From the IMG/VR virus record IMGVR_UViG_3300005617_000014, positions 1-46,623 of that record: a stretch of DNA of 46,623 nucleotides. The stretch is one strand, 5' to 3'. The stretch is from a virus. The notes beneath the pieces are model-generated. The model ran no database searches. It worked only from the letters and a program-made list of their open reading frames with translations, and was not told where the DNA came from. Made by a program: the position numbers and the translations under genes. This document shows positions 1 through 46,623 of this stretch, piece after piece (position 1 is the first letter of the stretch; every line of letters begins with the position of its first letter).

Positions 1-73
1 ACTGATCATAATCATTTATGATCTCCGCCAAGCGTTGAAACTCAGCGGAGACCCATTCGTCAATTTCTGACAT
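1..73 (-). CDS. 5' fragment of the gene at 46146-46586 (duplicated by contig overlap)
   Basis: Partial reading frame whose ATG is at 73-71 and which runs off the left edge of the window. It is the same sequence as the first 73 bases of the gene that starts at 46586, so it is not a separate gene. Confidence 0.9.
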   Translation of the reverse strand, partial: MSEIDEWVSAEFQRLAEIINDYDQ

Positions 74-110
74 TTACTTCTTAGCTCTTCCAGTATCATC
101 TAAGGGTGAT
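1..110. repeat. Terminal direct repeat, left copy (contig closure)
   Basis: The first 110 bases are identical to 46514-46623, the last 110 bases of the window. The copies fall inside ordinary coding sequence: the start of one gene and the end of the next, both intact when the ends are joined. This is what an assembler leaves when a circular or circularly permuted genome closes on itself. A true 110 bp packaging repeat cannot be excluded from sequence alone. The non-redundant genome is then 46,513 bp. Confidence 0.95.
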
Positions 111-418
111 TCATCAGCATATACAGCCTGAGAAATAACACGAGATGTTGTTGCGTTTTCAGTACCTCCCTTAAGTGCTCTATTATAGTTATCCTTTGCT
201 ACATCAGGATGTAGATGAGTTCCGCTGGGAATCTGCTTAGCACCAGAATCCCTATAAACCTCTACATTAGGATTCTCATCTACTGCATCTGGAATCTCAC
301 TGTTGATATTATACCTTGCAGCAGACTCTTCCGGAGTCTCAGATGCTAACTCGGCAGGAGTCTTATTAAGCATATCAGACAACGAGGGAGATTCTGACTT
401 TTTAGGAGTTGGAGTCAT
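74..418 (-). CDS. Hypothetical hydrophilic virion-operon protein
   Basis: A 114-residue acidic, hydrophilic protein without cysteine pairs or membrane segments; no family recognised. The start MTPTPKK at 418 is preferred over a longer upstream frame because a GAAGGG-type ribosome site lies about 7 bases upstream. It ends next to the ATG of the following gene on the circular map (46146-46586), so the two are probably translationally coupled. Its place between capsid-side genes and tail adaptor genes suggests a minor head or head-tail role, which is inference. Confidence 0.7.
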   Translation of the reverse strand: MTPTPKKSESPSLSDMLNKTPAELASETPEESAARYNINSEIPDAVDENPNVEVYRDSGAKQIPSGTHLHPDVAKDNYNRALKGGTENATTSRVISQAVYADESPLDDTGRAKK

Positions 419-487
419 TACAAGCCCTTCTGTTGTAAATAAAGAACAGGGTGGTCGCAATTTCTACAACTACGACCACACCCATTC

Positions 488-730
488 TCACCTGTCGTGC
501 GTTTCCTTATTACTACACATACATCCATCAATAGGATTCCAAGAATAGCAAATGGAAGACACGCCTGCTTTGTGCTTACAAGGGTGATTAAAAAAGCCTT
601 CTTGTTCACAACCGCAACGATCTGGATTATGCCAATAAGGAACGGACTTTCTACATTCGTCACAAACTAGATAAGGATTAGCGAACCCCACAAGTACATG
701 AGTTCTAGTATGCGTCCTGGTAATAGCCAT
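488..730 (-). CDS. Small cysteine-rich (zinc-ribbon-like) protein
   Basis: 80 residues with about nine cysteines, including CDEC near residue 23, CGC near 39 and a closing GCMC near 69, plus several histidines. This pattern fits one or two small zinc knuckles. The ATG directly abuts the TAA of the upstream gene (731-1060). Function unknown. A metal-binding protein in a capsid operon may be a minor structural or regulatory protein. Confidence 0.65.
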   Translation of the reverse strand: MAITRTHTRTHVLVGFANPYLVCDECRKSVPYWHNPDRCGCEQEGFFNHPCKHKAGVSSICYSWNPIDGCMCSNKETHDR

Positions 731-1060
731 TTAGTGATTAATCTTTTCCGCATAAATAGTAACAGCAGCAGTATCTGAAGCCCCTGTGGCTAATCTTAAC
801 GCAACATTAATACCCGATGTATAATTAGTAATGTCTACAACAAATGGTCCAAAATTAACAGTATCACCAGCCCCTCCTGCTATAACAAGAGCAGGAGTCA
901 TGGGACTTGTAAATTTCAAACCATCTGCAAGACTATGTCTTCCATGACCCCATACCTTATATCTACCAGGTCCAGGGGCATTTATAAGAGCAACAAGTGT
1001 ATCTGCAGCTTGACTATTCCCTAAAACTCCTGATGCAAATAGAGTAATATCTTGACGCAT
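731..1060 (-). CDS. Probable capsid decoration or head-fibre protein
   Basis: 109 residues, rich in Gly, Ala, Thr and Val, with predicted alternating beta strands and no charged helices. It lies directly downstream of the major capsid gene with a 2-base gap, the usual place for capsid cement or decoration proteins in tailed phages. The assignment rests on position and composition; no diagnostic motif is visible. Confidence 0.55.
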   Translation of the reverse strand: MRQDITLFASGVLGNSQAADTLVALINAPGPGRYKVWGHGRHSLADGLKFTSPMTPALVIAGGAGDTVNFGPFVVDITNYTSGINVALRLATGASDTAAVTIYAEKINH

Positions 1061-2389: not shown

Positions 2390-3115
2390 TTATGGCTTCT
2401 TCTGCTCTAGCATTGCATGTTGCATCATCTGAGCAACTAGATTCTTAGTACCCATATTATCCAACTGCGTAACATCCAACTTACGTTGGGGAACTACTCC
2501 CCCACCACCAATAACCATCGGAGAAGGACGTGTCTTCCGAAGTTCAGAAATTTTATTAGCATATTCTTGAAAAGCTTGTTCGGCAGTCATTTCCTTATGT
2601 ACCATGCGCATAAGAATTTCTTCTTCATCAAAATCACCGTATTTACTTCTTAAACTACTCAACTCTTTTTCAAGTGCAGCTTCTTGCTCCGCAAGTTGCT
2701 GTTCCTGAGTAGTCTGATGACGCTGTGCCAATGCAATTTGAGCAAGAGTATCAATTTGCTGCTGCATTGTCTGGATACGAGGATCTTCCTCCATTTCTTT
2801 TTCCAAAGTCTTTACAGCAGCTTTTGCTTCCTGTGGCGTAAGTCCTAAATGCTGTCCAATAGCATCATAAATTTCACGAGGCTTATTTTCAATAAGGGAA
2901 AAAACACCAAGAGCAGTGCTGATATGATCAGGAGTAATTCCAGACCTATGAAAGTCTTCGTAACTCTTGAGAGGTTCGTAAGCAGAAATACGCTCTTTAA
3001 TCCTAGGAGCTAATTCAGCTCGTTTATCTTCGGGAAGTGCACCGACAATATCGTTCCACTCTGATCCTAAACCATCAAAAAGTGGCATATCTCCCGGAGG
3101 AGTGGGCTGTCCCAT
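2390..3115 (-). CDS. Capsid scaffolding protein
   Basis: 241 residues. The N-terminal part is acidic with helices. The middle (about residues 105-160) is a Gln/Glu-rich coiled coil with KTLEKEMEEDPRIQTMQQQI and EQEAALEKELSSLRSKYGD. The C-terminal third is basic and contains VAQMMQHAMLEQKK, resembling the short C-terminal capsid-binding helix of scaffolds. It lies directly upstream of the capsid gene and downstream of the portal in transcription order, the standard place. There is no sign of a protease domain. Confidence 0.75.
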   Translation of the reverse strand: MGQPTPPGDMPLFDGLGSEWNDIVGALPEDKRAELAPRIKERISAYEPLKSYEDFHRSGITPDHISTALGVFSLIENKPREIYDAIGQHLGLTPQEAKAAVKTLEKEMEEDPRIQTMQQQIDTLAQIALAQRHQTTQEQQLAEQEAALEKELSSLRSKYGDFDEEEILMRMVHKEMTAEQAFQEYANKISELRKTRPSPMVIGGGGVVPQRKLDVTQLDNMGTKNLVAQMMQHAMLEQKKP

Positions 3116-3316: not shown

Positions 3317-3798
3317 TATAGAGAACCTGGATCATCAGAAATTCGTAACTGATAGTCTTTATCATTCTCAGTCAACCTAGCAACGTAAGCAGCAGAAAAA
3401 CCTAATTCAACAAGTCGTCGATCTTTTTCACCAGTACTGTACACATTAGAGTATCCAACCAGTTTCATAGTATCTCCAGAAACTGGAGCCACAGCTGCAG
3501 CAGGAGTAAATGTAACCGTTGTACTTCCTGCAACAGCAACAGCCGTAACTCTAAAAACTGTTTCTTCTTTTAAAGTTCCAGTAGTTACGTTAAAGAGTTT
3601 AAATTCTTCTCCGATACGTACAACATTTGTAGGAGTTGCAGGAGCAGCATTAGCACCCACAATTGTAGTAGTTGTACCTGTAGCATTTGCAGTAAAAATT
3701 ACTGGTCCAGCAACTACACGAGATTCAAAATCATCTCTAAATTTACGTCGTTTATCTACATATCCAGCAGGCATAACACTGCCGATTTGATGTGTCAC
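3316..3798 (-). CDS. Structural protein with a beta domain resembling the capsid insertion
   Basis: 160 residues. Roughly residues 32-115 form a Thr/Ala/Val-rich stretch with ATGTTTTIVGAN, then VRIGEEFKLFNV, a VTAVAVAGSTTVTF strand pair and GDTMKLVG. The same order of elements (SGTTTTLV, IGMFVDVYD, YTITF, VAVGDFI) appears in the insertion of the major capsid protein, so the two may share a small beta domain; this is my alignment by eye. The C-terminal part is helical and ends in LRISDDPGSL. It is located between portal and scaffold. Head-surface or connector role inferred. Confidence 0.6.
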   Translation of the reverse strand: MTHQIGSVMPAGYVDKRRKFRDDFESRVVAGPVIFTANATGTTTTIVGANAAPATPTNVVRIGEEFKLFNVTTGTLKEETVFRVTAVAVAGSTTVTFTPAAAVAPVSGDTMKLVGYSNVYSTGEKDRRLVELGFSAAYVARLTENDKDYQLRISDDPGSL

Positions 3799-5882
3799 TA
3801 CATCATTCCTTCCTGTGAGGACTCTCCTTCTAATTCAGGCATAGGTACCGGACCTGTACTTCCTCCCTCTCCTTCTTCCATTTCATCCATAGCTGCTTCT
3901 TCATCTTCAGGAGCAGGAGCATTAGGATTACTAGGATCTAAACCAGTCAAGGGATGTACCATCATTCCGGCTAAGGCTTCTTGATGCTGTCTAACATGTT
4001 CTTCAAAAAGTGCTTTTGTTGTTGGTGAGGCATTTTCAAAACTCTGACTCTTCCGATAATTATTGTGTACTTCAATATGTAACTGATGATTATCATAAGT
4101 ATGGACAGGAATGAGCAGAGGGGGTTCTAGGTTCAGACCAGAATCGATATCCTTTTTAATTTCAGAAGGTTGACTATTTATCCACATTTCTGTATGTTCT
4201 TTAACATCCTGATCTGTAATGACTCGCATCTTAAGATTTTCACGTTGTGCCTGTCGTTTATCGATTTGAATTTCTTCATAAAGTCTATTAAGTCCACCAA
4301 CCTCCATAAGTTCAAGACCCTTATCTGGAGGAATGAAGCCCATCTTCATAAGATCCATAATAAATGCTTGTTTAGCTGCTCTAGAAGTAGGTAGTGCACT
4401 TCCAGATTCAACTCTAATATCAGCGTTACCTCTCAGATCTGCACCTTTAAATGTTTGAACATCAAAAGTACCTTCAATACCCACAATTTTAATTGTTCGA
4501 GGCTCATCCCAATACATCTTAACATAGTTAAGAGATTGTCCTGCAACTTTTTCGATAGCCTCTTCAATTGAAGTATAGTGATTGGCAATAAGACTTTCAT
4601 CTTGTTCTTGCAAAAAGCTAATAGCAGTAGCAGCTGTTACTCCCGGAGGAGTACTGCCATTACTAACTTCATGCTGCCCACTTAAATCTGAAATATCTGT
4701 ATATAAACGGTCAATCTCTTGTGTAACATAACTAGGAATATTCTGTAAAGGCAGCGGCTGTGGCGGATCAAATCCAAGAGCATATTGAATAACTTGACCT
4801 GGTTCGGTTGTAATAGCTCTAGGTTCAACAGCACCTTTTTGAGCCACTAACTGTGGCTTACTCATTCTATTCTTTGATTCAATTAATTGACTACGTGATC
4901 GATTAAGTTCCTTTTGTAACGGGATCAAGTCTTCAATAATAGATGCAGTATAAAATTTTCCTGTAGGAATAGAATCTAGTTTAGCAATAGGATACTGCCC
5001 ATGATCGTAAGGCCAGCTATCCATACCTTGTACTAATTTATTAGCAGCAACAGTAAACATACCACCATTAGGTAATTCAGGAAGATAACCTGGCTTAACC
5101 CAAATTTCAAGAATAATAGATTGATCTTTTTTACTGTTATTGCGACTAACACCCATTACAGTCTGCAAACCTTCATCTACAGACTCTAATTTATTACTAT
5201 CTCCATCAATTCCTAAATTCTGTCTAATCCACGAATTATTTCTAACTTGTGCATGAATAATATAAGGTTGATCTTCAATCTCAGAACACATTAAATCTGG
5301 AACAAAAATGTGAAAAGGAGTCACACTATGAATGCAGATATCTCCAGGCATATCTGAATCTGGATCAATCTTGGTAGAATCCCAGTATGTTTTAATAAAT
5401 CCCGTACCTGCTACTGCTTGCCAAAAAACCGCATCTCTTAGTGTTTTATTAAATTTCAATCTTCGCCACAGGGAATCCCAAATCTGCTCTCCTGCTTGCG
5501 CGGCAAATACATCGGCATCTTCGGTTGAAGAGGGCACTACAAATGCATTGGGCTTCTGAGCTGTCAAACGAGCAATTTCTTTACGGATGGTTCGACGAAT
5601 TTGATTGATTACAATTCTAACTTTATAATAAGGAGCATTGGGAACATAAAGATCAAAAGGTCCACCACTTTGAGTCTGTCTAAATTGCACATACTGATTA
5701 CCAGACAAGAAAGCATAATTTAAATACCATTGCCGTTCCTGCATGGTTCTATCATTTTGACACTGATGAAACCATTGCATTCCGATAGCAGCTAATCTTT
5801 CACGCTGCTTATCCGCATCTCTACTTTCTTCTGTAAAGAACCCTGTACTAGTCAAACCCATAGGATTGTCAGGATATGTCAT
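3798..5882 (-). CDS. Portal protein
   Basis: 694 residues, the length of P22-type podovirus portals. Features seen: an N-terminal region with MQWFHQCQNDRTMQERQWYL and SGNQYVQF; the portal core stretch RRTIRKEIARLTAQKPNAFV; GTGFIKTYWDS followed by IHSVTPFHIFVPD; the long helical segment LIPLQKELNRSRSQLIESK; and a late Gln/Glu-rich crown-like tail ending in EDEEAAMDEMEEGEGG. It forms the 12-subunit ring at the packaging vertex. Its start overlaps the stop of the upstream small membrane ORF by 4 bases. Confidence 0.9.
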   Translation of the reverse strand: MTYPDNPMGLTSTGFFTEESRDADKQRERLAAIGMQWFHQCQNDRTMQERQWYLNYAFLSGNQYVQFRQTQSGGPFDLYVPNAPYYKVRIVINQIRRTIRKEIARLTAQKPNAFVVPSSTEDADVFAAQAGEQIWDSLWRRLKFNKTLRDAVFWQAVAGTGFIKTYWDSTKIDPDSDMPGDICIHSVTPFHIFVPDLMCSEIEDQPYIIHAQVRNNSWIRQNLGIDGDSNKLESVDEGLQTVMGVSRNNSKKDQSIILEIWVKPGYLPELPNGGMFTVAANKLVQGMDSWPYDHGQYPIAKLDSIPTGKFYTASIIEDLIPLQKELNRSRSQLIESKNRMSKPQLVAQKGAVEPRAITTEPGQVIQYALGFDPPQPLPLQNIPSYVTQEIDRLYTDISDLSGQHEVSNGSTPPGVTAATAISFLQEQDESLIANHYTSIEEAIEKVAGQSLNYVKMYWDEPRTIKIVGIEGTFDVQTFKGADLRGNADIRVESGSALPTSRAAKQAFIMDLMKMGFIPPDKGLELMEVGGLNRLYEEIQIDKRQAQRENLKMRVITDQDVKEHTEMWINSQPSEIKKDIDSGLNLEPPLLIPVHTYDNHQLHIEVHNNYRKSQSFENASPTTKALFEEHVRQHQEALAGMMVHPLTGLDPSNPNAPAPEDEEAAMDEMEEGEGGSTGPVPMPELEGESSQEGMM

Positions 5883-6626: not shown

Positions 6627-8065
6627 GGAATTTCTCCAAAAGCTAAATCTGATCTATTTGATTGATAAAATCCTGCATCCACTTCCCAAGGGAAGTCTTT
6701 TCTATTAATTAATGTCTGACTTATACCCTGGGTGATTCCCTTATCTTCGGGACCCAGATAAGGCATTAAATTAAAGAAATAACCACATCCATCCATAGCA
6801 TGGTCATTCTTCTTATTAGGTTCTTCTCTAACATTATTTCGATCAGCAATTTTTGGTGAATTGTAGATTTTAAAAGCATAACCTTTAGCTTCTTTAATAG
6901 TGTTGATACAATCCTCAGTTATATGCCACATATCATATTTTAAGTATTCATTCATTTTATTAATACGAGCAGTGACATCCTTCTTACCTTGCATAAGAGG
7001 AATGCCTAAACGCCTATACTCAGATAGAGCAGAAGTCCCAGTAATCGCATTTTTCTGACTCATTGAAGGATCACCAATATAGAGCTGTGGCTCTCTTCCA
7101 ATCTCTGCATTAATCTGCTTGATTCTATTTACATGTTGACTAATAACCCATTTGTTTTTATAGTGTTCTCTAAAAGTAACTACTTGTTTCTTAGGCGATA
7201 CTGCGTGCCAATTAATAGCAGTAGGAGCATTATATCCGTGATCAATAGACACATAAATAGTCCATGATTCTGGAATAAGATTACCTCTAGCAATAACGTG
7301 TCTTTTAATATCAAATTCCTTGAGTACCAATCCGCCCTTGGGTACAAAAATACCTTGACGACGGACTTTCTTTTCATCCTCGTCAAGGTCATCATCAAGT
7401 AACTCAAGAGCTATTTTATTCAGATGTGGATTATCTTTAATGTCAACTTCGAACATGTCAACATTCTTTGCTGCTGTTGCAATATACCTATCAAAAATCC
7501 AATCTTGACCTTCAACAGGAGTCATGGTCATGTACCAAACACCGTTGTAGTCAATTAGGCGCAAACGGCACTCGTTAAAAATTGCTTGGGGAGGCTCCTC
7601 GTCAAACCAGCACCAGTGTAATGGAACACCTGCAAAAGACTCAACTTCTTGTTGATGCGTCTTTAGTTCAATTGTAGAACCATTACGTAATGTTACTAAC
7701 TTATCATTTCTGCTATAGCTATCTTCCCAAGATCCGTTCTTTAGTTCACTTGGAGGAATCCACTGCTTTAGTAAAGGAATAATAATCTGATTAATACCTG
7801 CTTCTCTATCAACAGTTACAATTCTACCTCTAGTAGGAACCTCATGTGTGTTTAAAAACGGATGTCTACCTGTAGCTCTCCAAACGCTTTCTACTGTACC
7901 GGCAACAGATTTCCCAGAACGGTTACCACCTCTAAGAATTCTGCCAACCTTAGTAGTTTTGTGAAAACTTTCATGTACGGAAGAATTAGGAATGTAACTA
8001 AGTACGTTGGGCTTCTTAGCAGCCACAGAGAGGGAACTTGCTAGTTGCTCAAGAAAATCATTCAT
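6623..8065 (-). CDS. terL: Terminase large subunit
   Basis: 480 residues, normal for TerL. The ATPase domain has a Walker A GGNRSGKS at residues 46-53 and a Walker B WCWFDEE near 151-157. A C-terminal RNase H-like nuclease domain is indicated by VSIDHGYNAPTAI (first Asp), YIGDPS (second Asp) and NDHAMDGCGYF near residue 440 (last Asp). It pumps DNA into the prohead through the portal and cuts the concatemer. It is followed by the zinc-ribbon gene and the portal. Confidence 0.95.
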   Translation of the reverse strand: MNDFLEQLASSLSVAAKKPNVLSYIPNSSVHESFHKTTKVGRILRGGNRSGKSVAGTVESVWRATGRHPFLNTHEVPTRGRIVTVDREAGINQIIIPLLKQWIPPSELKNGSWEDSYSRNDKLVTLRNGSTIELKTHQQEVESFAGVPLHWCWFDEEPPQAIFNECRLRLIDYNGVWYMTMTPVEGQDWIFDRYIATAAKNVDMFEVDIKDNPHLNKIALELLDDDLDEDEKKVRRQGIFVPKGGLVLKEFDIKRHVIARGNLIPESWTIYVSIDHGYNAPTAINWHAVSPKKQVVTFREHYKNKWVISQHVNRIKQINAEIGREPQLYIGDPSMSQKNAITGTSALSEYRRLGIPLMQGKKDVTARINKMNEYLKYDMWHITEDCINTIKEAKGYAFKIYNSPKIADRNNVREEPNKKNDHAMDGCGYFFNLMPYLGPEDKGITQGISQTLINRKDFPWEVDAGFYQSNRSDLAFGEIP

Positions 8066-8892: not shown

Positions 8893-9458
8893 GCATCCGA
8901 TGTAGGATAGATACAGTATCCAGATAATCTATCATTTTGAGCCACAGCGAAGGGAGTATTGTCTCTCCAGAAGTTACCATCATGCTTTCTGAAAACCAGC
9001 AAATTTGTACTTGGCTGATAAAGAACTACAAGATTAGAACTCGTTGCAACCGCATCGTTATCGTGTAAATAAGCCTTACCTACAGCCATGGTATCATTAA
9101 TAGTTCCAAACTCAGTAGGCACTGTGGCAGGTACAGCTATTCGATATAAACCAGAACCTGCTGCAAATCCTGCACCACCTGTAAAAATTTGAAAGTAAGC
9201 TAACACCATTCTAGGAAAAAGTCTAATAAATTTACCTGATACACTACCTCCAGATCCTAAAGTAGGATTGGTAGTGTCTGCTGTCCAAGTAGGAGTCCAG
9301 GTATGAGTATTAGTATGTCTAAAAAGAGTATCTATTTTGTCACAGTTAACACCATTCTGCACTGCCCATCCATCTGATGGAGGTGTAACAACTGCTTTAA
9401 TAGACTCATCTGTATCTGGCTTAATTAATCCTAAATTAGTTGTTGTTGTCGTTCCCAA
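8889..9458 (-). CDS. Tail-fibre-like protein, paralogue 2 of 3 (TTG start)
   Basis: 189 residues. It shares WAVQNGVNCDKIDTLF, NPTLGSGGSVSGKFIR and AAGSGLYRIAVPA with its two paralogues. The start is TTG at 9458-9456, supported by a near-perfect AGGAGG 7 bases upstream and the absence of a nearby ATG. The Thr run right after the start (GTTTTTN) leads into LGLIKPDTDES, a recurring opening of small phage fibre proteins. Receptor-binding or fibre role inferred. Confidence 0.65.
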   Translation of the reverse strand: MGTTTTTNLGLIKPDTDESIKAVVTPPSDGWAVQNGVNCDKIDTLFRHTNTHTWTPTWTADTTNPTLGSGGSVSGKFIRLFPRMVLAYFQIFTGGAGFAAGSGLYRIAVPATVPTEFGTINDTMAVGKAYLHDNDAVATSSNLVVLYQPSTNLLVFRKHDGNFWRDNTPFAVAQNDRLSGYCIYPTSDA

Positions 9459-9603: not shown

Positions 9604-10193
9604 AACTTCTTATACAGAAAGTTAATAATAAACCTATCATCAGCAGCCACAGTGATAGGCATTGCATCTCTTACAAATCTAGACGTCTTAGCAGGTGATG
9701 TAAAAGCTTCTGTTAGCATTCTAGCATATGAAACTCCACCAAATGTAACACAGTCAATAGCCACAGAGCCAGATGTCGAGCTTGCACTTGCATCATATAC
9801 AAATCCTTCACCAATAACAGAAAAAGATCCAGGCGTTGAGTTGAGTGCACTTCCAACACTGTGAAAACTGTTATCAACTAAAAAAGGAAGACTAATTCCG
9901 TATTCTCCTGTGCCTGCTGCAATTCCAGACCCAAAGAAAGTAACGATAGCACTTCCCATGATAACGCCCATATTATCAATGTATTCACCTAGGACAGATC
10001 CACCTGAACCGATATTAGGTTGAGTCCCCTGTGTGATAAAAGTAGGAGTATACGCAGTAACAACTTTGTTAGCTTCATCTTGGATAATAGTATTATTGTC
10101 ACCTTGTAACTGTGTAAAGTTTACCCAATTCTCAGCAAGTTCAACATCAGTAGGTTTAGCTAGTGCTACATTAGAAGTAAAATTAACTACCAT
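9600..10193 (-). CDS. Tail-fibre-like protein, paralogue 3 of 3
   Basis: 197 residues. It has VELAENWVNFTQLQGDNNT near the N-terminus, TQPNIGSGGSVLGEYID in the core and AAGTGEYGISLPF, matching the order of elements in 8335-8892 and 8889-9458. The C-terminal half diverges. It is the first-transcribed member of the triplet, preceded by an AAGAAGG ribosome site. The likely role is receptor binding or fibre structure. Confidence 0.65.
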   Translation of the reverse strand: MVVNFTSNVALAKPTDVELAENWVNFTQLQGDNNTIIQDEANKVVTAYTPTFITQGTQPNIGSGGSVLGEYIDNMGVIMGSAIVTFFGSGIAAGTGEYGISLPFLVDNSFHSVGSALNSTPGSFSVIGEGFVYDASASSTSGSVAIDCVTFGGVSYARMLTEAFTSPAKTSRFVRDAMPITVAADDRFIINFLYKKL

Positions 10194-10530: not shown

Positions 10531-11273
10531 TATCCAAATCCTAACTGTCTCTTAGCGTGTTCAAGTTCAGGATCTTCAACAACTTCACCTGTAATAGCTG
10601 GCTGCTCGGTAACAACTTCAAGAGTTCTATTAGCTGAAGCTAACTTGATGTCTTGAGCGATGGCCATAATCGTTTCAGGATCTTTAACGTGCTTCTGAAT
10701 GATCTCAACAATCATCCGCAGAAGTACTTCACTCTGTGGCGCTGTATTGTTAGCAAATTCTCCAGTAACTTCTAAGAAGAACTTAACAGCGTTCCAGTCA
10801 CCTGAATTAACCTTCTTAGTAAATTCAGCAACCGCTGTAGGTCGAATGTTAATCTTGTTCTGATCTGCTAAAGAGTTAACGAAGTTATTAAAAACAGGAT
10901 CTTGCAACCAAGCGTAATAAGTAGCTGGGAGAATTCCCAGTTGATCTAATTTTTCAGCAATAGAACGTTCATCAGCAAAGTTCATCACTGTCAAAGCTGC
11001 TGCTTGCTGCTGTGGCGTTAATTCTTCTTGAGAATGTTGTCGCCAAGGAATTCCACGATCATCTAAAGCTTTGATAACTGGTTTACGGGTTAAATAGTAA
11101 TTGACTGATGTGATCCTAAGATTGTCTCTAGTTTTTCTTAAATGCTTGTAAACTTGCTCTACAGTAGGAACTGTGTTTGTAAGAAACCATTGAAGTTCGT
11201 AGTAACCAATTAGATCTTTTTCTGCGGCTGTAAGTCCTTCCTTAATAGCGTAGTATTGTTTTCTAGTTACCAT
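10530..11273 (-). CDS. Probable terminase small subunit (phBC6A51-type DNA-binding protein)
   Basis: 247 residues. The middle has a helix-turn-helix of the homeodomain-like phage type: FADERSIAEKLDQLGILPATYYAWLQDPVFNNF (reported here in two parts: residues of the first helix pair, then TYYAWLQDP). The N-terminal region is helical with repeated YYELQWFL and YKHLRKTRDN elements, and the C-terminus is acidic. This HTH with a following helical oligomerisation region is typical of small terminases that select phage DNA for TerL. It is separated from TerL by the fibre genes, which is unusual but not unique. Confidence 0.6.
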   Translation of the reverse strand: MVTRKQYYAIKEGLTAAEKDLIGYYELQWFLTNTVPTVEQVYKHLRKTRDNLRITSVNYYLTRKPVIKALDDRGIPWRQHSQEELTPQQQAAALTVMNFADERSIAEKLDQLGILPATYYAWLQDPVFNNFVNSLADQNKINIRPTAVAEFTKKVNSGDWNAVKFFLEVTGEFANNTAPQSEVLLRMIVEIIQKHVKDPETIMAIAQDIKLASANRTLEVVTEQPAITGEVVEDPELEHAKRQLGFG

Positions 11274-11876: not shown

Positions 11877-11897
11877 TAAAACGTCCAATCTTGATTT

Positions 11898-33852: not shown

Positions 33853-35041
33853 CTTTATTAGATTGATTGCGAGAATTAAAGAACGTGGGATCAAAATTGA
33901 TACAGCGTTTTCTCGAAAAAAGGCTATCGAAGGTACAAAAATCCTTAATACTATCGCAAGTAATCTCGGATGGAACCCGGGTAGTCCTCAGCAACTCGGC
34001 AAGTATCTCATTGATGATCTTGGTTTACCTGTACTCAAAAAAACACCCAATGGTGCTCCTTCGTTTGACAAAGAAGCATTAGAAGAATATGAATTACTGC
34101 TAGATGCCACAGGAGACGACACTGCACAAAAAGTTCTTACCTATAGGGGATGGCAAAAAACAGTAAGTTCCAATTTCCAAGCCTATCTAGACTTAATGGA
34201 TGAAAATGAGATCTTACACCCCAACTACAAAGTACATGGTACTCGCACTAGTCGCCTCAGCTGTGAAAAACCTAATCTCCAGCAGATTCCGAGGGAAAGT
34301 GTAAAACCTTGGAACGGTGATGTTAAAAAAGCGTTCATTCCTAGAGAAGAAAGACTGTATTGGCAGGGTATTAATGGAATTCCAACTGCACAAGGTTCAG
34401 GCATTTTTACACCTAATGCTACGAAAACTATCTGTGGCGAATTAAAACTTAGAACATTTGACTTCAAGCAGGTTGAATTTAGATTAGCAGCTGCATATGC
34501 CAAAGAGAAAGATCTTTTGGAAGTGTTCAATTCGGGTGCGGATATTTTTTCGGAAATGTCCACCCGATTGGGTCGTCCAAGGCATCAGATTAAGACATTT
34601 GTATATGCTACATTATATGGGGCGGGGAAGAGCAAAATTGCTCTTATCCTCAAGGTACCTAAAGATGAAGCGGATAGTCTATATGAAGAATATCACGGAA
34701 CGTGGCCGGGTTTCAAAAAGATTACTGAAAAGGCGACTCAGTTAGCTTCTAATGACGGATATATTGAATATTGGACTGGGCGACGTAGACACTTACATAA
34801 AAGTGAAGCACATAAAGCTTGGAATTCTATCTTGCAAGGAGGCGCTTTCGAAATTGTTAAACGTAGAATGTTGGCACTTAAAGACGAACCCATTGTCTTA
34901 CAGGTACATGATTCGATTACCATTGAAGACGATGATAATTGTGATATCGATCGAATCAAAAAGACCTTGGAAGCTGTTCCAGAAAGTCAACAACTGGGCG
35001 TTAAATTCGAAGTAGATATGGTTGTTGAAGGTGAGAAATGA
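33812..35041 (+). CDS. PolA-family DNA polymerase, polymerase domain only
   Basis: 409 residues from GTG 33812. Thumb region, then TRTSRLSCEKPNLQQIPR, motif A LRTFDFKQVEFRLAA (catalytic Asp 217), motif B RPRHQIKTFVYATLYG (255-270) and motif C VLQVHDSI (362-369). In motif B the residue equivalent to E. coli Phe762 is Tyr, as in T7 polymerase. There is no exonuclease domain; the DEDDy exonuclease is encoded separately at 29614-30249. It replicates the phage genome with the primase-helicase. Confidence 0.93.
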   Translation: MNNLLSTLWEIEADFIRLIARIKERGIKIDTAFSRKKAIEGTKILNTIASNLGWNPGSPQQLGKYLIDDLGLPVLKKTPNGAPSFDKEALEEYELLLDATGDDTAQKVLTYRGWQKTVSSNFQAYLDLMDENEILHPNYKVHGTRTSRLSCEKPNLQQIPRESVKPWNGDVKKAFIPREERLYWQGINGIPTAQGSGIFTPNATKTICGELKLRTFDFKQVEFRLAAAYAKEKDLLEVFNSGADIFSEMSTRLGRPRHQIKTFVYATLYGAGKSKIALILKVPKDEADSLYEEYHGTWPGFKKITEKATQLASNDGYIEYWTGRRRHLHKSEAHKAWNSILQGGAFEIVKRRMLALKDEPIVLQVHDSITIEDDDNCDIDRIKKTLEAVPESQQLGVKFEVDMVVEGEK

Positions 35042-35866: not shown

Positions 35867-36365
35867 CGAGTATCTTAAAGGTCTTAGAGAAACAGTCAAT
35901 GCTGAAGAAAATCCTGTAGAGTATTTAGCTATTGATCCTGGTAAATCAAACGGCATCTGTGGCTACGATGCTAAACTATATATGGTATTCATGTTAACTA
36001 TTTCTTCTACGGATATGGTTCGATGCCTACATCAATTTGAAAAAGTTCAATATTGTATTGTTGAAGACTTCAAGCTCTATCCTAACAAAGCACGTTCTCA
36101 ATCCTATTCTAACATGGAAACTTCCCGTGTAATTGGCAGAATAGAAGCATGGGCTGAACTTAAAGATGTTAAACTTATTAAACAACCGGCAACTATCAAA
36201 GAAACTGGATATAAATGGATTGGACAGAAGCCACTCCCCAAGTCTGATAAGAAAAATCATCAAGTAGATGCCCATGTACACTTTATGTATTGGGTAATTA
36301 AGAGTGGTAGGTTTGATGCTTCAAATTTGGTACATGGACTAACAAGGGATCCTGATGCGAGCTGA
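35829..36365 (+). CDS. RuvC/RNase H-fold nuclease
   Basis: 178 residues from GTG 35829 (AAGGGAGG 8 bases upstream). LAIDPGKSNGICGYD gives the first catalytic Asp of a RuvC-like fold. YCIVEDFKLYP gives the Glu, KLIKQPATIKE the usual middle strand, and KKNHQVDAHVHFMYW the last Asp with its helix. This is the phage Holliday-junction resolvase type, used to resolve branched replication DNA before packaging. Confidence 0.8.
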   Translation: MTVSIESTQKITDEYLKGLRETVNAEENPVEYLAIDPGKSNGICGYDAKLYMVFMLTISSTDMVRCLHQFEKVQYCIVEDFKLYPNKARSQSYSNMETSRVIGRIEAWAELKDVKLIKQPATIKETGYKWIGQKPLPKSDKKNHQVDAHVHFMYWVIKSGRFDASNLVHGLTRDPDAS

Positions 36366-36830: not shown

Positions 36831-37092
36831 ATGTTTTTCCGCAAGAAAATTTTTGTTGAAGAACAAGCATTCCTGCTGCAATTTTCTTTCCAAGTTCACT
36901 GGGAGGAGGATTCTCTCTGTATGCTTGATTGAATAAACTTATCACACTACACCATTGTTTATTACTTTCTCTATCTACATAATTTGCGTATTGAAAAGAA
37001 GATAAGATACTTATAAACAATACCAGAGTTACCGCTACCCAAGTATACATCAACCTTCTAGGTACCATAATAAATGTAGGTCTATCAGCCAC
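36829..37092 (-). CDS. Membrane-anchored small protein, last gene of the leftward operon
   Basis: 87 residues. One membrane segment (YTWVAVTLVLFISILSSF) after a short basic start, then a soluble helical part with two cysteines (QWCSVISLF and FSCGKT). This type-II topology recurs in phage lysis or virion cassettes next to holin-like genes. Spanin-like function possible but unproven. Confidence 0.65.
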   Translation of the reverse strand: MADRPTFIMVPRRLMYTWVAVTLVLFISILSSFQYANYVDRESNKQWCSVISLFNQAYRENPPPSELGKKIAAGMLVLQQKFSCGKT

Positions 37093-37111
37093 AGTCAGCT
37101 CCTCAGTAATT

Positions 37112-38085: not shown

Positions 38086-41000
38086 TTTCTGTAAGTAATT
38101 GTCTTAATTCAGTCTGTGCCTGTGGCTGATAAGGTCCTGTTCCAGTAACACCAGCAGAAGTTAAAAAATTAATAAGTTGTTCAGGATTCCAAGGTTCGTT
38201 ATCTCGGGTCATACCTGTAATCCTAGCTCCAATTCCAACAGCGGGAATCTGTTGAGCTAAATGACCAGGTACTCCTCCTTCAACACTTTCTAAAGGAATT
38301 CCGAGTGAAGTGTTTCCAGTAAGGAGTTCGATAGGAATTCGTGCCGCCGGACTAAGTGATGATAGTAGAGTTTTTGCAGGTGATCCGATTTGTGAAATTT
38401 GGTCGACAAAGGGATTTGTTGGGTTAATAATAGTGTAACCCGAAGCTTCTCCTCTCCAAGTTTCATCTCTACCCAATCCCGAACCTGGTTGTAAAACGGG
38501 TCCAATTCCTTTTTCCCTTAACCAATCTGGGAACATTTGATCCATTGGGAAAGGATCCGCTGGACCCTGAGATTCAATTCCTGTAGCTAATTGAATATTT
38601 GCCATCGCTTTTGGAAATGCAAGTGTAATATGTGGACGCATTAAAGCGCCTTCAATAACTAAAGGTGTTGCCTTCCGCATCCAAGAATAGAAAGGAATGA
38701 TTCGTCTGAGTACATTTTGTTCGAAACCAGTAAGGTCCATTCCGTCCGGGTGAAACTTTTTGACTCGTCTCGCAGCTTGTTCAACAGCAACTCTGAGTGG
38801 TTGATTCGATTTTCCAAGGACATCAACGAAATGAGCAAGTCTGACCCAGTGATCTCTAAGTTCAGATGTTCTGGTTGCAACATCATAAAGTTTACCTCCA
38901 AGAGGTTTAAAATTGGCTCCAAATGTACCAAATGCAGGAGCAGCATCTCCAACTAAATCTTCAACGTGCATTGCTCTAATAAATAAACCTTGAGATTCAG
39001 CAGCTTGATAAATTTGCTCAGCGGTTAACCTATCGCCGCGTTTTGTGGTGAGTACAGTATTACCAGGACGAGATCTAAGAGCACGGTCACGAAGCCCAGA
39101 ATCCATAATATTAAAAACAGATTCCAAGCTCTTGTAACGAGTCGGAAAAGCATGGAGTACTTTAGTTGCAATTGCATAAGGCCTAGGGCTAACAACGCCG
39201 TCAAGGGCAGCAAGATAGATATCGCCGTTAAGATTACGAATATGGTGCGATGGAGAGTAGATAGTGACACCAGTTTTCCACATCCTTTGTACTTTGTCAA
39301 AAAGTTCAATTGCCTTATGGGGCGTTCTGAACACGTCTCTAGTCAACTGCCGCTGTAAATTAGTTAATTGAGTTGCAATCTGTTCTGGAAAATAAGTACC
39401 AGCAAGTCTAGAAATTCCTTCTACTTGATGCTGGAACTCTGCTCCTTTAATAGGCATTCCCCAACGAGCAGCCGCGTCATCCCACATCGAGTTTTTCCGG
39501 GTAACCATCTGAAGTGAACGTGTAAGTTGATATAAAGCTTCTGCTGGTTCGTCAACATCCCATTCTTTCCATGAATGCATCCAATTACCGTTGCGATAAT
39601 CAAAATCTCTACCTAATTTATCAGCACCCTTAGCATCAATTAATCTCAAATTCTTAGGAAGTTCATCATTTAATTCTTTGAGTAAAGTACCACTACGTAG
39701 TACAACAGCTTCTGCATTATCTTTAATTCCATGGGTACCCATTAAACGTTCAACAATATACTTAAATTGAGTTGCCAATTCTTGTTCTGCTGGAGATCCT
39801 GGTGAAATTTTACCTTGAGCCACAGAGAAGGCTATTTTACGTTGTGTAGCTGTAGTACTTCTAACTAATGGACGCATGGTCTCAGAGAAAGCGGCAGCAA
39901 CATTCCTAGCTGTATCAATATATTCTCTAGAGAATGGTTTGAGATCTTTAGCACCCCACCAAGTGGCAAACTTGGTCATGATGCCTTCAGTTACTCTACT
40001 TTGTTCTGTCTGTCGACCTAAAAGTTTAGGATTAGCACCTAATACTTTGTATGTCTCATCAGTAATTTTATGCATCGTTTGAGGATTAAGAATACCAGAA
40101 GAAGACTGCCTGACAAGATTACGCGCTTCTTGCTGAATAGTGCTATAAAGTTTATCACGATCTGGATTAAAAAGATCATCAATGAAAGTTTTTGCTGTTC
40201 TCGCCTCTCTCGACGAAGCACCTGCTTTTTCTGCAAGTCGACTCAATTCTGTAGCTAGTTCACTAGTTACGGAAGGTACTTGACTGGGAGGTAGATTTTT
40301 AACATAGGGCACCAAATCCTGTCCTGTTTTAACTACAGGATCTAAGATTTCTGCAACAACCTGTGGCGTAGTATAAGACTTCAAATCTTCAATTCGTTGG
40401 GAAGGACGCGCTTTTCTAAAGTCATCCACTAATTTAGAAGATAGAGCTTTAGGCCCACCTAGCAGATTAGCAATGTCACTAAGTCGAACACTAATACCTT
40501 CAGCATCTACTAAATGCCTACCAGCCTGTAAAACTTCTTCTTCTGCAATTCTAAGCATCTGAAAAACATGAAAGGCTCTACGATCTTTACGCACTTTACC
40601 AGCTGCGTGAAGAATTTTATTATAAAGATTTGTCTGTCCTACATGGTTGATATTTCTAATTCTATTATTCTTAAGAAACTCTTGTGCTGCTTCTCTTGCT
40701 GTATTAATCCATCGTTCATTAATACTTAACTCAGGAAAAGGAGGAGGAGCAATTCTAGCTTCAGTAAGTGCGTCTGCCGGTTTAACTCCAGCTTGAAGTT
40801 TCTCAATTTGCTTCCTAAGAATGTTCTTAGCCACAGGGCTCTTTGTCTTGATAATCTGCTCATTTAACCGCTTAATGTCGGGCAGGGCAGAGAAGGGCTT
40901 GTCTGAAAGAGCTAATGGGGGAATATGTTGTCTAAGATTAGAAACGATAGGAGTTTTAGGTACTTCAGATGCAACACTAGGGAGTGCTAATTGAGGTCCG

Positions 41001-41712: not shown

Positions 41713-42981
41713 TTACTTCTTACCGTAATACAACTGCAAGTACATTAAAAGTTCCTGATGAGTTTCTTCATCAATTTCACCACGGCGCAACATTTCATCA
41801 GCTTGAGCCATAAACCACTGAGGAGTCGTATCTACAAAAGTACCAGGAACGGGATTACGCTTATCTTCAACCTTGCCATATACAGCCTCAGGACTACGCT
41901 GAAGACGCGTAAAGGCATTCGCCAACTCCTGCTGAGCATCAGGAGATAATTGTGACATATAAGTGTCAGGAGTCAACGCTTGCTGTTTACGTCCTTGTAA
42001 TTGACTTTGTAACATATCCCACAGCATACCTTGACGGCGACCTGCTTCACCTTGAGCCATCTGCTGCTGCTGCATTAACATATTTTGAGCTTGATTGTAC
42101 TGATTCATATAAGTTTCTTGAATACCAGAAGTTCGTTCAGCTTCAAGGTTATTTAAATAATCCTGTAATTCAGCCAACATATTTGTTGAAATTTCATTAC
42201 CTGCCATAGTGGCATTTGGAGAACCTTCGCGGTAATAAGTTTGATCAGCTTGTCCAATATCCATATATCTCTGTGCTTGTTGAGCCTGATTTTCAGCAGC
42301 ACCTGTTAAAGCATCAGCCACAGGTGCTTGCTGTTCTTGTAGTACATCAGGTAAAGCGGCTTCAATTCCCAATTGCTTAAAAAGTTCACCTTGTTCATTT
42401 GAGACCCTTGAATAGTCACCTTGAATATTGCTGCGCAATTGACCATATAATTGCTCAACTTGTTTTTGTGCATCAGCAGCTTGTGCAGCTTGTTGTGGCG
42501 CCAATCTCTCATAATCGTTAGACAAAGCTCGGTACATATCTTTAACTTCTTGACGATTTCTAGTACCCTGCGCTTGCGCAGTTTTAGATCTTTGATCGTA
42601 AATAGGATCAATAACCTTATGCACCTGAGACATTAAATCAGCAGTATTAACACTGGTGGGCATATTGACAGGCTGTTGAAGTTGGCTCAATAGTTGCTGA
42701 TAAAGAGCCATCAGAGGATCCTGTGGCTGCATCTGACCTAATTGAGTTACTGCATCACTAACGGCACTACCAAAAGCATTACCAATATTACCGTAATTCT
42801 GAGTTGGTCTGGGAGAAGCACCTCGTTGAGAATTAAGAATTGAAGGAGTAGTTGCAGAAAAAGGACCACCAACAAAAGGAATAGTTCTTTTAAGTTCACC
42901 TAAAGCGTACTGTCGTGGAGTTCTAGTTAATCTTTCTAAAAGGGCCGCAATGTCAGGCCCGGGAAAAACACCTGCCATCAC
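41713..42981 (-). CDS. Gln-rich coiled-coil internal virion protein
   Basis: 422 residues, very rich in Gln, Ala and Leu (QLLSQLQQPVNMPTS, NMLMQQQQMAQGEAGR), mostly long helices. It lies between the large ejection-type protein and the Ser/Arg-rich protein. Composition and context fit internal core or ejection proteins of podoviruses. Confidence 0.6.
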   Translation of the reverse strand: MMAGVFPGPDIAALLERLTRTPRQYALGELKRTIPFVGGPFSATTPSILNSQRGASPRPTQNYGNIGNAFGSAVSDAVTQLGQMQPQDPLMALYQQLLSQLQQPVNMPTSVNTADLMSQVHKVIDPIYDQRSKTAQAQGTRNRQEVKDMYRALSNDYERLAPQQAAQAADAQKQVEQLYGQLRSNIQGDYSRVSNEQGELFKQLGIEAALPDVLQEQQAPVADALTGAAENQAQQAQRYMDIGQADQTYYREGSPNATMAGNEISTNMLAELQDYLNNLEAERTSGIQETYMNQYNQAQNMLMQQQQMAQGEAGRRQGMLWDMLQSQLQGRKQQALTPDTYMSQLSPDAQQELANAFTRLQRSPEAVYGKVEDKRNPVPGTFVDTTPQWFMAQADEMLRRGEIDEETHQELLMYLQLYYGKK

Positions 42982-43679: not shown

Positions 43680-43891
43680 TAAATTATCCTCCCCACATCA
43701 GCACTCATTTGGTTACCACTACTAACTGCCTTTAATCTGCGTAACATTGCCGTTCGTCTAGCTTGGTATTTTAAATCCCTCTCTCTGTGGCCAGAAGGGT
43801 CTACAGGACCAATATTAGGAGCATCCCTTCCACCACCGTAAATTTTATCTCCAGCAGCATAAGGAAGAAATTGTTTACCTTGATAAATAAT
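43679..43891 (-). CDS. Small virion-operon protein with apparent ATT start
   Basis: 70 residues beginning IIYQGKQFLPYAAGDKIYGG and containing GRDAPNIGPVDPSGHRERDL and RRTAMLRRLKAV. This is a recognisable pattern of a small conserved phage structural protein. The frame has no ATG, GTG or TTG before the conserved part. It opens after a TGA with GGGGGA and then ATT ATT TAT, so ATT at 43891 or 43888 is the likely start. Its TAA overlaps the next gene's ATG. Gene callers that demand canonical starts miss it. Confidence 0.6.
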   Translation of the reverse strand: MIYQGKQFLPYAAGDKIYGGGRDAPNIGPVDPSGHRERDLKYQARRTAMLRRLKAVSSGNQMSADVGRII

Positions 43892-43911: not shown

Positions 43912-45486
43912 CTATGAAATCCTAGCACTCACCAATTGTTTGATACCTACCACAGCTGCATATTGAAAAATCTTAGTAGGTTGTGCTGTAGTTCCATTAG
44001 TCTCTAATCGTAAAGAAAAGTTAATCTTTCTGAATCTCATTGTTTTTCCGAATTTGATTAACTTATTAGTGTTAGCAATATCATCACCTGTAATAGTCTC
44101 TTGAAAACTATTTGCACCAGCAGTAGGATTCTCCCAAGTATTCAAGTCAGCCCATGTTTCACCATTTAAAGCATCCCATGTAGTTGAGTTAATCAAAGTA
44201 ATAGGAGTAGCAAATCCAGTAACATCTTTACCTGTAATTACATCCGCACTCCACCAGAACAATTTCTTGTATCTAACAGGATCAGCCATATCATAATCTT
44301 TAGTAGTCGCTACACAGTAAAATTTATGAGTACCTAGTCCTTCGGAAGTACCACTTGATCTACCATCAATGATCTTAATGACTTTATAGCCTCCGGAAGA
44401 GACGTCGAAGGAGTATCCCGTGTAATAAGAATCAAGCCCTGATCCAGTGAGATCACGTGCTCTAATGAGTGGACCGAATATATGCCATTCAATGGTTGAG
44501 GTATCATCAGTTTTTGACCATTCTCCCCAGGTTTTAGTACGAAGTTGGAAAGAATAGGTACGGTTATAGTATCTAACAACAAGACGTTCTCCTAAAATAC
44601 TTAAATGTTGATTTTCATATCTCGTTGTAGTACCTGTAGGTAATGAGTTATCAAATACAAGGGGCACTTTGAGATTTAGAAGAGAAAAGTTATAATTAAT
44701 AATTTCGTATACTTTGTTACGGTGCAAAGCATACACCGTATTTTCATACTGAACTACTCCTAGACTACCATCAGATCCAACTACAGGATTAATTTCACGA
44801 AGAATCGCATCAGCAGGATCTAAATCGTATGCAAGAACATGAGTACTTTCTCCTTTAAAAAGTAGTAGATTATCTTGATAGACGACCACATTATTGAGAG
44901 TATCGCCATCACCAGGCTGTACATCAATAAAATTAGTACCAGGCCATGTAGTAAAATCGGCCGATGCTGAAAACGAGAGACGAGATGCATTAGAAGTTGC
45001 CGTATTTCCGGGACATAAATATAACCTGTTCTTATGAACTACACATTTTTCAGCTCTGGGCATAGCAGCAACTGCAACAGCGCCACCGCCAACAGTCCAA
45101 GATATTCCGCCGTTAGCGCTTCCAGGGGTGGCAGGTAGCCATACTGTATTATTATAAACTTCCATTGTTTTACATTCACGAGAAACTGCTCCAGGATTCA
45201 ATTCGGTCCAAGAACTGCCTGCATTCGAACTAACAAAAGTCTTACCATCTCTAGTTGCAAACAAGTACAAAGTACCACTGAACACAATAGAACCAAAAAT
45301 AAGAAGTCTTTGATTGGTTGCCCCTTGAAACATAATTTGAATAGATGGCCTACTAACAAGAGATCCATCTGTATCAAGTTCAAAATTTAAACAATCAGTT
45401 AATTCATTATCCTGCACAAGCACTGGATCTGATCCAATATTCAATCCTCCTGTAAAAGGCCCCAATCTTAAAATCTCAGTAGGCAT
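43912..45486 (-). CDS. Tail tube / beta-propeller-like protein (tail stabilisation)
   Basis: 524 residues. Opens LGPFTGGLNIGSDPVLVQDNE and LTDCLNFELDTDGSLVSRP, the typical start of phage tail or neck proteins of the tubular-protein-B/stabilisation type. Repeated blade-like strands follow (LYLFATRDGKTFV, TVWLPATPGSANGG, RLYLCPGNTATS, NLLLFKGESTHVLAYD, TVYALHRNKVYEI). It is downstream of the adaptor gene and probably forms the tail nozzle. Confidence 0.7.
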   Translation of the reverse strand: MPTEILRLGPFTGGLNIGSDPVLVQDNELTDCLNFELDTDGSLVSRPSIQIMFQGATNQRLLIFGSIVFSGTLYLFATRDGKTFVSSNAGSSWTELNPGAVSRECKTMEVYNNTVWLPATPGSANGGISWTVGGGAVAVAAMPRAEKCVVHKNRLYLCPGNTATSNASRLSFSASADFTTWPGTNFIDVQPGDGDTLNNVVVYQDNLLLFKGESTHVLAYDLDPADAILREINPVVGSDGSLGVVQYENTVYALHRNKVYEIINYNFSLLNLKVPLVFDNSLPTGTTTRYENQHLSILGERLVVRYYNRTYSFQLRTKTWGEWSKTDDTSTIEWHIFGPLIRARDLTGSGLDSYYTGYSFDVSSGGYKVIKIIDGRSSGTSEGLGTHKFYCVATTKDYDMADPVRYKKLFWWSADVITGKDVTGFATPITLINSTTWDALNGETWADLNTWENPTAGANSFQETITGDDIANTNKLIKFGKTMRFRKINFSLRLETNGTTAQPTKIFQYAAVVGIKQLVSARIS

Positions 45487-45495
45487 TCCTTCTCC

Positions 45496-46149
45496 TTACT
45501 GATCGTATTCCAATACTGTAATAGTGGGATAAGTAGCCGTAGCTTCTGTAGTTTCTCGGGTCTGTAGTAGATTCATATCAGATTGAAAATCTACTTTATA
45601 CATTTGTGCGGGCTCATGATCTTCATCCAAAAGACTAGCCTGCCACATACAATACTTTAAAAGAGTATTGTGGTAAATAAGAGGCAGAGAGATTGTATCT
45701 GAAAGCCCCGTTACATCTGTAGGCTTTTGATTATATAAAACTTTGATACCATTAGTAAAAGACTCACTTGGTGTAGGAAATAAAAGAGCCTTACCTTCAT
45801 ACATAGTAAAGAATGCAGGATTTCCTGCTGTATAAGCAGTACCATCCCAACCATCAATCGAGTTATCAAATTCTTGCATATTTTTATATCTTAAAGCACT
45901 ATAGCTCAACATTGCTGAAAATTTGTATCGTAGTGATCTAAGAATCATTAAATCAGTAGGTAGAGTATAGGAAGATTGATTAGCTACAATATTGATAAAG
46001 GCTGTCTTTTGTAAGGCACCATCATTATGTTTGATAATCTCTACTTGACCGTCATTAATCCAACGTTTAATATCATCATCATTTACCTGAACAGCAGCTT
46101 CATCGCCAAAGATACGTCTAACTCTAGTAACAATATCACTGACAATCAT
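45496..46149 (-). CDS. Head-tail adaptor (tail tubular protein A-like)
   Basis: 217 residues. VSDIVTRVRRIFGDEAAVQV, DDDIKRWINDGQVEI and the following SSYTLPTDLMILRSLRY form the recognisable start of adaptor proteins (T7 gp11/P22 gp4-like) that bind under the portal. Later ALLFPTPSE and NGIKVLYNQKPT fit the same family. Its start overlaps the upstream gene by 4 bases. Confidence 0.7.
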   Translation of the reverse strand: MIVSDIVTRVRRIFGDEAAVQVNDDDIKRWINDGQVEIIKHNDGALQKTAFINIVANQSSYTLPTDLMILRSLRYKFSAMLSYSALRYKNMQEFDNSIDGWDGTAYTAGNPAFFTMYEGKALLFPTPSESFTNGIKVLYNQKPTDVTGLSDTISLPLIYHNTLLKYCMWQASLLDEDHEPAQMYKVDFQSDMNLLQTRETTEATATYPTITVLEYDQ

Positions 46150-46586
46150 GTTAGATGTTTCCTAACAGAACCTAAGTCTCTAAACTCATCATCACGTACA
46201 CGACCTTCATGAATCCAACGACTCTTAGTATTCTTAATAACAAAAGCACTAAAATCTTTCATAGCTTCTCTTTCATCAATTTCTTCTTTAAGTTTCAAAG
46301 CTTCAACAGCTTTATTGTGAGCATCCATTCTTTGAAGCACATTACCATGTCTACTATCAGAACTCCATAATCTAGCAAGAATGTCAGCAGGATTAGACAA
46401 AGAATCTGCATATAAAACAATTTTTTTATTTCTATCATCTACAATACGAAAAACTTTAGATTTATCTGTTAAATTCTGCTGTTCCGCCACAGGGACCATT
46501 TCAAGAAACAAATACTGATCATAATCATTTATGATCTCCGCCAAGCGTTGAAACTCAGCGGAGACCCATTCGTCAATTTCTGACAT
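46146..46586 (-). CDS. Hypothetical virion-operon protein
   Basis: 146 residues, helical, acidic N-terminus (SEIDEWVSAEFQRLAEIIN) and a beta centre (KVFRIVDDRNKKIVLYAD). Its start lies inside the terminal repeat, so the first 73 bases recur at the window start. A recurring phage protein placed upstream of the adaptor; function not recognised. Carries a GCCACAG copy at 46486. Confidence 0.65.
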   Translation of the reverse strand: MSEIDEWVSAEFQRLAEIINDYDQYLFLEMVPVAEQQNLTDKSKVFRIVDDRNKKIVLYADSLSNPADILARLWSSDSRHGNVLQRMDAHNKAVEALKLKEEIDEREAMKDFSAFVIKNTKSRWIHEGRVRDDEFRDLGSVRKHLT

Positions 46587-46623
46587 TTACTTCTTAGCTC
46601 TTCCAGTATCATCTAAGGGTGAT
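46514..46623. repeat. Terminal direct repeat, right copy (contig closure)
   Basis: Exact copy of 1-110. Joining the ends makes the minus-strand operon continuous: the gene at 74-418 becomes the upstream neighbour of 46146-46586, with its TAA directly next to that gene's ATG. Confidence 0.95.

Follow-up and report, generated by a model that had tools for sequence, protein, structure and literature searches.

The primase-helicase gp4 of T7 is a fused TOPRIM protein that reads a GTC-centred template word of 3-5 bases, common by chance, to lay down lagging-strand primers, and in RSF1010 the primase (RepB') and the helicase (RepA) are separate proteins serving two origin sites, ssiA and ssiB. In the archaeo-eukaryotic primase (AEP) superfamily, the enzymes studied biochemically begin primer synthesis where the template reads GTG or GTGG; ORF904 of pRN1 uses GTG, the PrimPol of NrS-1 has a preference for GTGG or GTGA and begins synthesis at the base immediately upstream of it (PMC8718748), and the word of the Lactococcus phage 1706 primase is CCAAC (PMC12205980). 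We analysed the tailed-phage virus record IMGVR_UViG_3300005617_000014 over its whole length of 46.6 kb (hereafter the window), in which the 7-mer GCCACAG, or CTGTGGC on the other strand, is present in 49 exact copies. Very probably, it is at these copies that the phage's own primase-helicase, encoded at 27999-29738, recognises single-stranded template and starts primers. To our knowledge, a genome-wide selected grid of priming sites has not been described, and our search of the open-access literature found no report of such a grid or of genome-wide enrichment of priming sites.

The primase-helicase of the window resembles T7 gp4 in being a fused protein and the proposed reader of a template word, but its primase is of the AEP type and its word is longer and selected. 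The folds of its two halves are those of RSF1010 RepB' and RepA, although here they form one protein with dozens of sites. With the template sites of pRN1 ORF904 and NrS-1 PrimPol the system shares a GTG(G) core, pyrimidines just 5' of it at the putative start, and an AEP domain followed by a helix bundle; unlike the words of those two enzymes, however, the words described here have 6-8 bases and are strict, rare by chance, enriched genome-wide and evenly spaced.

The exact matches to the 7-mer in the window are as follows, the strand being the orientation of GCCACAG.

784-790, minus strand, GCCACAG site
2831-2837, minus strand, GCCACAG site
3488-3494, plus strand, GCCACAG site
4758-4764, minus strand, GCCACAG site
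4851-4857, minus strand, GCCACAG site
5465-5471, plus strand, GCCACAG site
7085-7091, minus strand, GCCACAG site
8022-8028, plus strand, GCCACAG site
8941-8947, plus strand, GCCACAG site
9122-9128, minus strand, GCCACAG site
9646-9652, plus strand, GCCACAG site
9760-9766, plus strand, GCCACAG site
10734-10740, minus strand, GCCACAG site
11010-11016, minus strand, GCCACAG site
12157-12163, plus strand, GCCACAG site, non-coding region
13373-13379, minus strand, GCCACAG site
14186-14192, plus strand, GCCACAG site
14600-14606, minus strand, GCCACAG site
14915-14921, minus strand, GCCACAG site
15054-15060, plus strand, GCCACAG site
16393-16399, minus strand, GCCACAG site
16453-16459, plus strand, GCCACAG site
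18431-18437, plus strand, GCCACAG site
18702-18708, minus strand, GCCACAG site
19393-19399, plus strand, GCCACAG site
19776-19782, minus strand, GCCACAG site
21582-21588, plus strand, GCCACAG site
22154-22160, minus strand, GCCACAG site
25049-25055, minus strand, GCCACAG site
25479-25485, plus strand, GCCACAG site
25790-25796, plus strand, GCCACAG site
27587-27593, minus strand, GCCACAG site
28842-28848, plus strand, GCCACAG site
28945-28951, minus strand, GCCACAG site
30273-30279, plus strand, GCCACAG site
31160-31166, minus strand, GCCACAG site
33439-33445, plus strand, GCCACAG site
34106-34112, plus strand, GCCACAG site
34432-34438, minus strand, GCCACAG site
35957-35963, minus strand, GCCACAG site
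37088-37094, plus strand, GCCACAG site
38120-38126, minus strand, GCCACAG site
39819-39825, plus strand, GCCACAG site
40361-40367, minus strand, GCCACAG site
40830-40836, plus strand, GCCACAG site
42317-42323, plus strand, GCCACAG site
42721-42727, minus strand, GCCACAG site
43785-43791, minus strand, GCCACAG site
46486-46492, plus strand, GCCACAG site

On the given strand, 24 copies read GCCACAG and 25 read CTGTGGC, against 2.4-3.9 expected from Markov models of orders 0-3; the expectations rise to 11.4 at order 4 and 33.4 at order 5 only because those maximal models contain the motif's own 5- and 6-mers. No other 7-mer of the window is as strongly enriched as GCCACAG (z about 21-28), and the 21 one-mismatch words of the motif show no enrichment there. 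With the 49 copies masked, its inner 5- and 6-mers do not exceed their expected numbers. A degenerate motif was rejected on the behaviour of these one-mismatch neighbours; the selected unit is the exact 7-mer, with mild flank preferences for A or C before it and for G and purines after it. When the codons of the open reading frames (ORFs) were shuffled synonymously, 5.3 +/- 2.1 copies remained (maximum 13 in 300 shuffles), as compared with 47 observed in coding DNA, where the copies lie in all three frames and in both orientations within genes. The original prediction, made from the letters alone, had given the same total and the same split between orientations, 19 example positions that are all correct (19/19), and an expectation of two to four copies that agrees with the low-order models. 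Its statements that G follows about half of the copies (26 of 49) and that the signal lies in the DNA and not in codons or protein hold as well, and the word withstood both checks that it had proposed, the Markov comparison and the synonymous shuffle.

The copies are dispersed over all 46.6 kb, not clustered at one locus as origin iterons are in NrS-1. On each strand alone they recur about every 1.9 kb, an interval suited to lagging-strand priming, with no gap above 4.2 kb, and the coefficients of variation (CVs) of the spacing, 0.44 (P 5e-5) and 0.59 (P 0.005), show both strands to be more even than random; the earlier impression of irregular spacing was wrong. Merging the two strands lowers the evenness below that of each (CV 0.73, P 0.012), as would be expected if each strand were served separately. 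Similar evenness was found in the genomes of at least 25 kb, where 81 single-strand sets had a mean z of -1.14, with 86% below 0, whereas other 7-mers of similar count were clumped (mean z +0.71). In comparisons with relatives whose DNA is about 72% identical, 42-47% of the sites that could be aligned were intact as compared with 12-14% of random 7-mers, a 3-4 fold difference, and over half of the sites had turned over while the density stayed constant at about one per kb. The sites are thus held by selection. A bias in codons or amino acids, or a set of inherited repeats without function, has nothing in its favour beyond composition and is refuted by the synonymous shuffles; conservation above background, turnover at constant density and even spacing also speak against it, and its probability is negligible.

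Relatives were gathered by searches with the primase, polymerase and portal proteins, and long contig pieces were then analysed. The word of the window recurs in close relatives, roughly once per kb; in more distant ones CTGTGGC is absent, and the top 7-mer is another word that can be aligned with it. The comparison with related phages that had been proposed at the outset thus gave the same word nearby and cognate words further away. As read on the other strand, the words of the relatives, whose G+C contents range from 38 to 61%, are CTGTGGC, TGTGGCG, CTGTGGG, CCTGTAG followed by G, A or C, and CTGTAGC; overall, the cognates consist of C or G, then TGT, then two bases (CTGTGGC, CTGTGGG, CTGTAG followed by G, A or C, CTGTCG, CTGTAAA, GTGTGG and GTGTGC).

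By tblastn, the primase-helicase family is present in 323-350 public phage records, including phages of Microbacterium, Gordonia, Arthrobacter, Mycobacterium, Serratia, Pseudomonas and others, the weakest of these matches (e.g. Streptococcus) covering the helicase part only. We analysed 17 annotated primase-bearing phages whole (16 isolates and the environmental MW202795; Eleri minus its last 0.4 kb), and each of the 17 has a cognate word of its own. The word is CTGTAG in MW202795, CTGTAAAG in Shocker, CTGTGG(G) in Brad and Jasmine, CTGTCG(C) in DS1 and GTGTGC in Amigo; GTGTGG is the word of Tlacuache, Serbin, Lebethron, PMBT14, BigChungus, GTE2, Gibbous and Muddy, and in Eleri, Peep and Raccoon it is followed by CC, the word of Eleri being GTGTGGCC. 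For twelve of the 17, no virion protein in common with the window was detected, yet they share the primase, and the primase-helicase is the only protein of the window found in all 17. Since these phages were chosen for their primase, this means that the motif goes with the primase and is not proof that nothing else does.

The named hosts of these phages bear on the possibility that the word is a recombination signal of the host, read by enzymes of the RecBCD/AddAB type, or a host uptake tag. Chi words are exact, enriched, non-palindromic words of 5-8 bases; the word of the window is like them in being exact, short, asymmetric, enriched and dispersed, and its 49 exact copies in both orientations would suit such a signal. 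However, a Chi word is set by the host and shared within it, whereas the present word follows a phage gene. Among phages of Arthrobacter ATCC 21022, Jasmine and Brad have CTGTGG, Amigo has GTGTGC, and Bennie and PrincessTrina have neither, while GTGTGG is common to primase-bearing phages of Serratia, Pseudomonas, Gordonia, Mycobacterium and Microbacterium. Because phages of one host differ and phages of different hosts agree, a host Chi word or uptake tag cannot give this pattern, and we consider it very unlikely that the word is either.

Other words of their own were seen in some of the genomes analysed. In Shocker (L179-L181), a second enriched word, TACCCTA (25 copies vs 0.8 expected), lies partly near the genome ends, besides the grid of CTGTAAAG. 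In IMGVR_UViG_3300037390_000086 (L285), ACGCGTA has 25 copies vs 3.2 expected, mostly as the dispersed palindrome TACGCGTA, besides a CTGTGG word. In two closely related contigs (L314, 12036-12435; L279, 3705-4104), 18 copies of ATTTCGC in both orientations lie within a stretch of 0.4 kb downstream of the primase gene, and this cluster probably represents replication-origin iterons.

For formal tests of the link with the primase, the pattern [CG]TGT followed by GG, AG, CG, AA or GC, which matches 1% of 7-mers, was used. It made the top five 7-mers by enrichment in every one of the 52 relatives with 15 kb or more of sequence (rank one in 41) vs one of 11 control phages; in NrS-1, the one control that scored, the enriched word belongs to iterons clustered within 0.4 kb. 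With the pattern frozen, 80 new loci were fetched with the primase profile of the GTGTGG clade, giving 61 new fragments of 11-21 kb; the pattern was in the top five for 40 of the 61 and rank one in 25, chance being about 5%. The reversed pattern scored 14 in this hold-out set, but GGTGTGG itself fits that pattern too, so that it is no clean control. Along the primase tree, 8 changes of word were counted, as compared with a mean of 22.9 (minimum 16) for shuffled labels. The motif thus follows the primase tree and not the host. In the CTGTGG and CTGTAG classes, the template positions -1 to -4 on the 5' side, where the primer would be copied, hold much C and little A; the 3' flank shows no such bias past its first base or two. 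A strand asymmetry considered for the GTGTGG phages was dropped, the fold excess being the same on both strands after allowing for composition.

Repressor sites of the kind known as stoperators in L5-type mycobacteriophages, which are tied to the direction of transcription, offer another comparison, since they too are many, dispersed and asymmetric; dozens of exact copies might accordingly be binding sites of a silencer or nucleoid protein. The sites of the window, however, ignore genes: they lie inside them in both orientations and all three frames, regardless of transcription. There are no degenerate half-sites, the carriers have no repressor-like gene in common, and the product of 16988-17860, which the original prediction had tentatively named as such a nucleoid protein, is without homologs among the 17 annotated carriers. 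We therefore give this explanation scarcely any credence. Of the four roles first proposed, the Chi-like hot spot, the uptake tag and the nucleoid-protein site have thus fallen away, and the priming site of the AEP primase is strongly supported by a motif that follows the primase across unrelated hosts and contains GTG(G).

The protein in question lies in a plus-strand replication block encoding an SNF2-like helicase, a PD-(D/E)XK exonuclease, a Sak4-like ATPase, the primase-helicase, a DNA polymerase family exonuclease domain and a family A polymerase; the head genes (terminase, portal and major head protein) are on the minus strand. The features concerned are given below.

27999-29738, plus strand, primase-helicase, 579 amino acids (phrog_3123, 1e-69; phrog_10514, DNA primase; AAA_25; AEP-type motifs; fold matches)
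27999-28592, plus strand, AEP primase domain, about residues 1-198 (model pLDDT 85.6; Foldseek 6zp9, 3h20/3h25)
28590-28865, plus strand, helix bundle, about residues 198-289, candidate template-reading domain (helix bundle domain, HBD/PriCT; five model helices)
33812-35041, plus strand, family A DNA polymerase, presumed primer extender (PF00476, 1.5e-55)

Residues 1-289 were modelled with a pLDDT of 85.6, and the model matched the PrimPol of cyanophage S-2L (6zp9, E 1.4e-8) and RSF1010 RepB' (3h20, 1.4e-8; 3h25, 1.3e-6) in Foldseek, so that the N-terminal part has, as modelled, the AEP catalytic fold. TEFDG at residue 82 (E83, D85) and GHEHWYW at 105 are invariant in 14 relatives, and their equivalence to AEP motifs was judged by eye. 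Matches to curated families are weak, some occurring in relatives only (PriCT_1, E 0.075; Prim-Pol, 0.013; RepB_primase, 0.0047), the PriCT_1 match falling at residues 215-250 of the helix bundle, below the cut-off. Residues 300-540 match the folds of RepA and DnaB-type helicases. The gene thus encodes a RepB'/PrimPol-like AEP primase and a helix bundle, with a RepA/DnaB-like helicase joined to them in one chain, which amounts to a RepB'-RepA fusion; its putative activity is primer synthesis. In the helix bundle, Arg231 (about 28689-28691) and Tyr247 (about 28737-28739) are common to all five lineages that read GG (GTGG words) and variable in AG (GTAG) readers; they may be specificity positions, but only as a lead, all columns having been scanned.

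Instead of the primase itself, another phage factor working with it may recognise the word, such as the helicase half during loading, a single-stranded DNA-binding protein or polymerase partner, or the recombination set of exonuclease and Sak4-like ATPase. The fusion of helicase to primase and the presence of a family A polymerase in 13 and of an SNF2 helicase in 10 of the 17 motif-bearing annotated phages are in keeping with this. By tblastn, however, homologs of the polymerase, exonuclease and SNF2 proteins are absent from several motif-bearing phages, whereas the primase-helicase is in all 17, and the word fits those that AEP primases are known to read on the template and has its C-rich flank on the primer side; we regard a partner as an unlikely reader.

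If the primase is the reader, the site on the template strand would be 5'-CTGTGGC-3', recognised as GTGGC, probably via the helix bundle, and the primer would start opposite the T and C just 5' of GTGGC. Such a primer, 5'-AG(G)(G)R..., would match the flank after GCCAC on the other strand, and a short primer beginning with AG would be extended by the polymerase. The constant part of all the words is T-GT, i.e. a putative T for the first A and the first two recognition bases. For a strict reader of 6-7 bases, chance sites would be about fifteen times too rare and leave gaps of tens of kilobases, so that selection would have to supply a site about every 1.9 kb per strand, on the scale of Okazaki fragments. 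Sites on both strands would let either be primed as the lagging strand, a provision that would fit forks in both directions or recombination-primed replication. As primases diverge, the preferred word may shift (CTGTGGC, CTGTAG, CTGTGGG, CTGTCG, CTGTAAA, GTGTGG, GTGTGC), the whole genome being rewritten along with it. We consider it likely that the primase-helicases of a large phage group require a start word that is long and strict, and that selection has written this word as an evenly spaced 'priming grid' on both strands of the whole genome, with word and primase co-evolving and the word readable from the genome alone.

Several points weigh against the primase as reader of a selected word. 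No genome-wide enrichment of the primase word was found in the three AEP phages NrS-1, 1706 and S-2L. The dinucleotide list of the test pattern was written after 52 genomes had been viewed, only the hold-out set being free of this, and the signal is weak in a few relatives (G026, G011, G020 and G031). As the phages were picked for their primase, the word may be read instead by the helicase half or by a partner that went unrecognised, and the need for sites on both strands rests on an inferred mode of replication. For NrS-1 and 1706, the known words are short and thus frequent by chance anyway; in NrS-1, GTGG occurs 181 times vs 161 expected.

NrS-1 (Nitratiruptor; AB746912) was rejected as a positive control for the grid, as GTGG is not enriched and the published primase site, TTTGGTTA, has a single genome copy. 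That copy lies, as part of TTTGGTTACACT, inside a cluster of eleven AGTGTAAC in about 0.3 kb (L264, 17062-17380), so that TTTGGTTA looks like an origin iteron and not a general priming word.

Elsewhere in the window, divergent gene blocks are separated by about 1.15 kb of non-coding DNA (11889-13035). With a 39-nt direct repeat (11872 and 12691), AT-rich runs and one GCCACAG, this region is a candidate for an origin or for control functions. The orphan ORF 16988-17860, on the minus strand within the plus-strand block, has no Pfam or PHROG match. The sole tRNA of the window is a tRNA-Leu (TAA) at 20339-20420 on the plus strand, and the Rfam scan of the window revealed nothing else; no methyltransferase was seen among the larger proteins scanned, and a prophage and host search of genome contigs found no relative.

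Primer start sites are hard to measure in vivo and the start word of most primases is not known, whereas the genomes described here would reveal it. They offer dozens of predicted primase-word pairs, including isolates with laboratory hosts (Jasmine, Brad, Shocker, Eleri, Peep, Muddy, Serbin and PMBT14), and as a natural series they could teach how DNA is read by the helix bundle of an AEP primase; primases with a specificity of 6-7 bases may also be possible tools. Okazaki-fragment spacing would become visible as a target of selection and, if the reading is true, the sequence of an entire genome, including its genes, can be remodelled by a replication protein.

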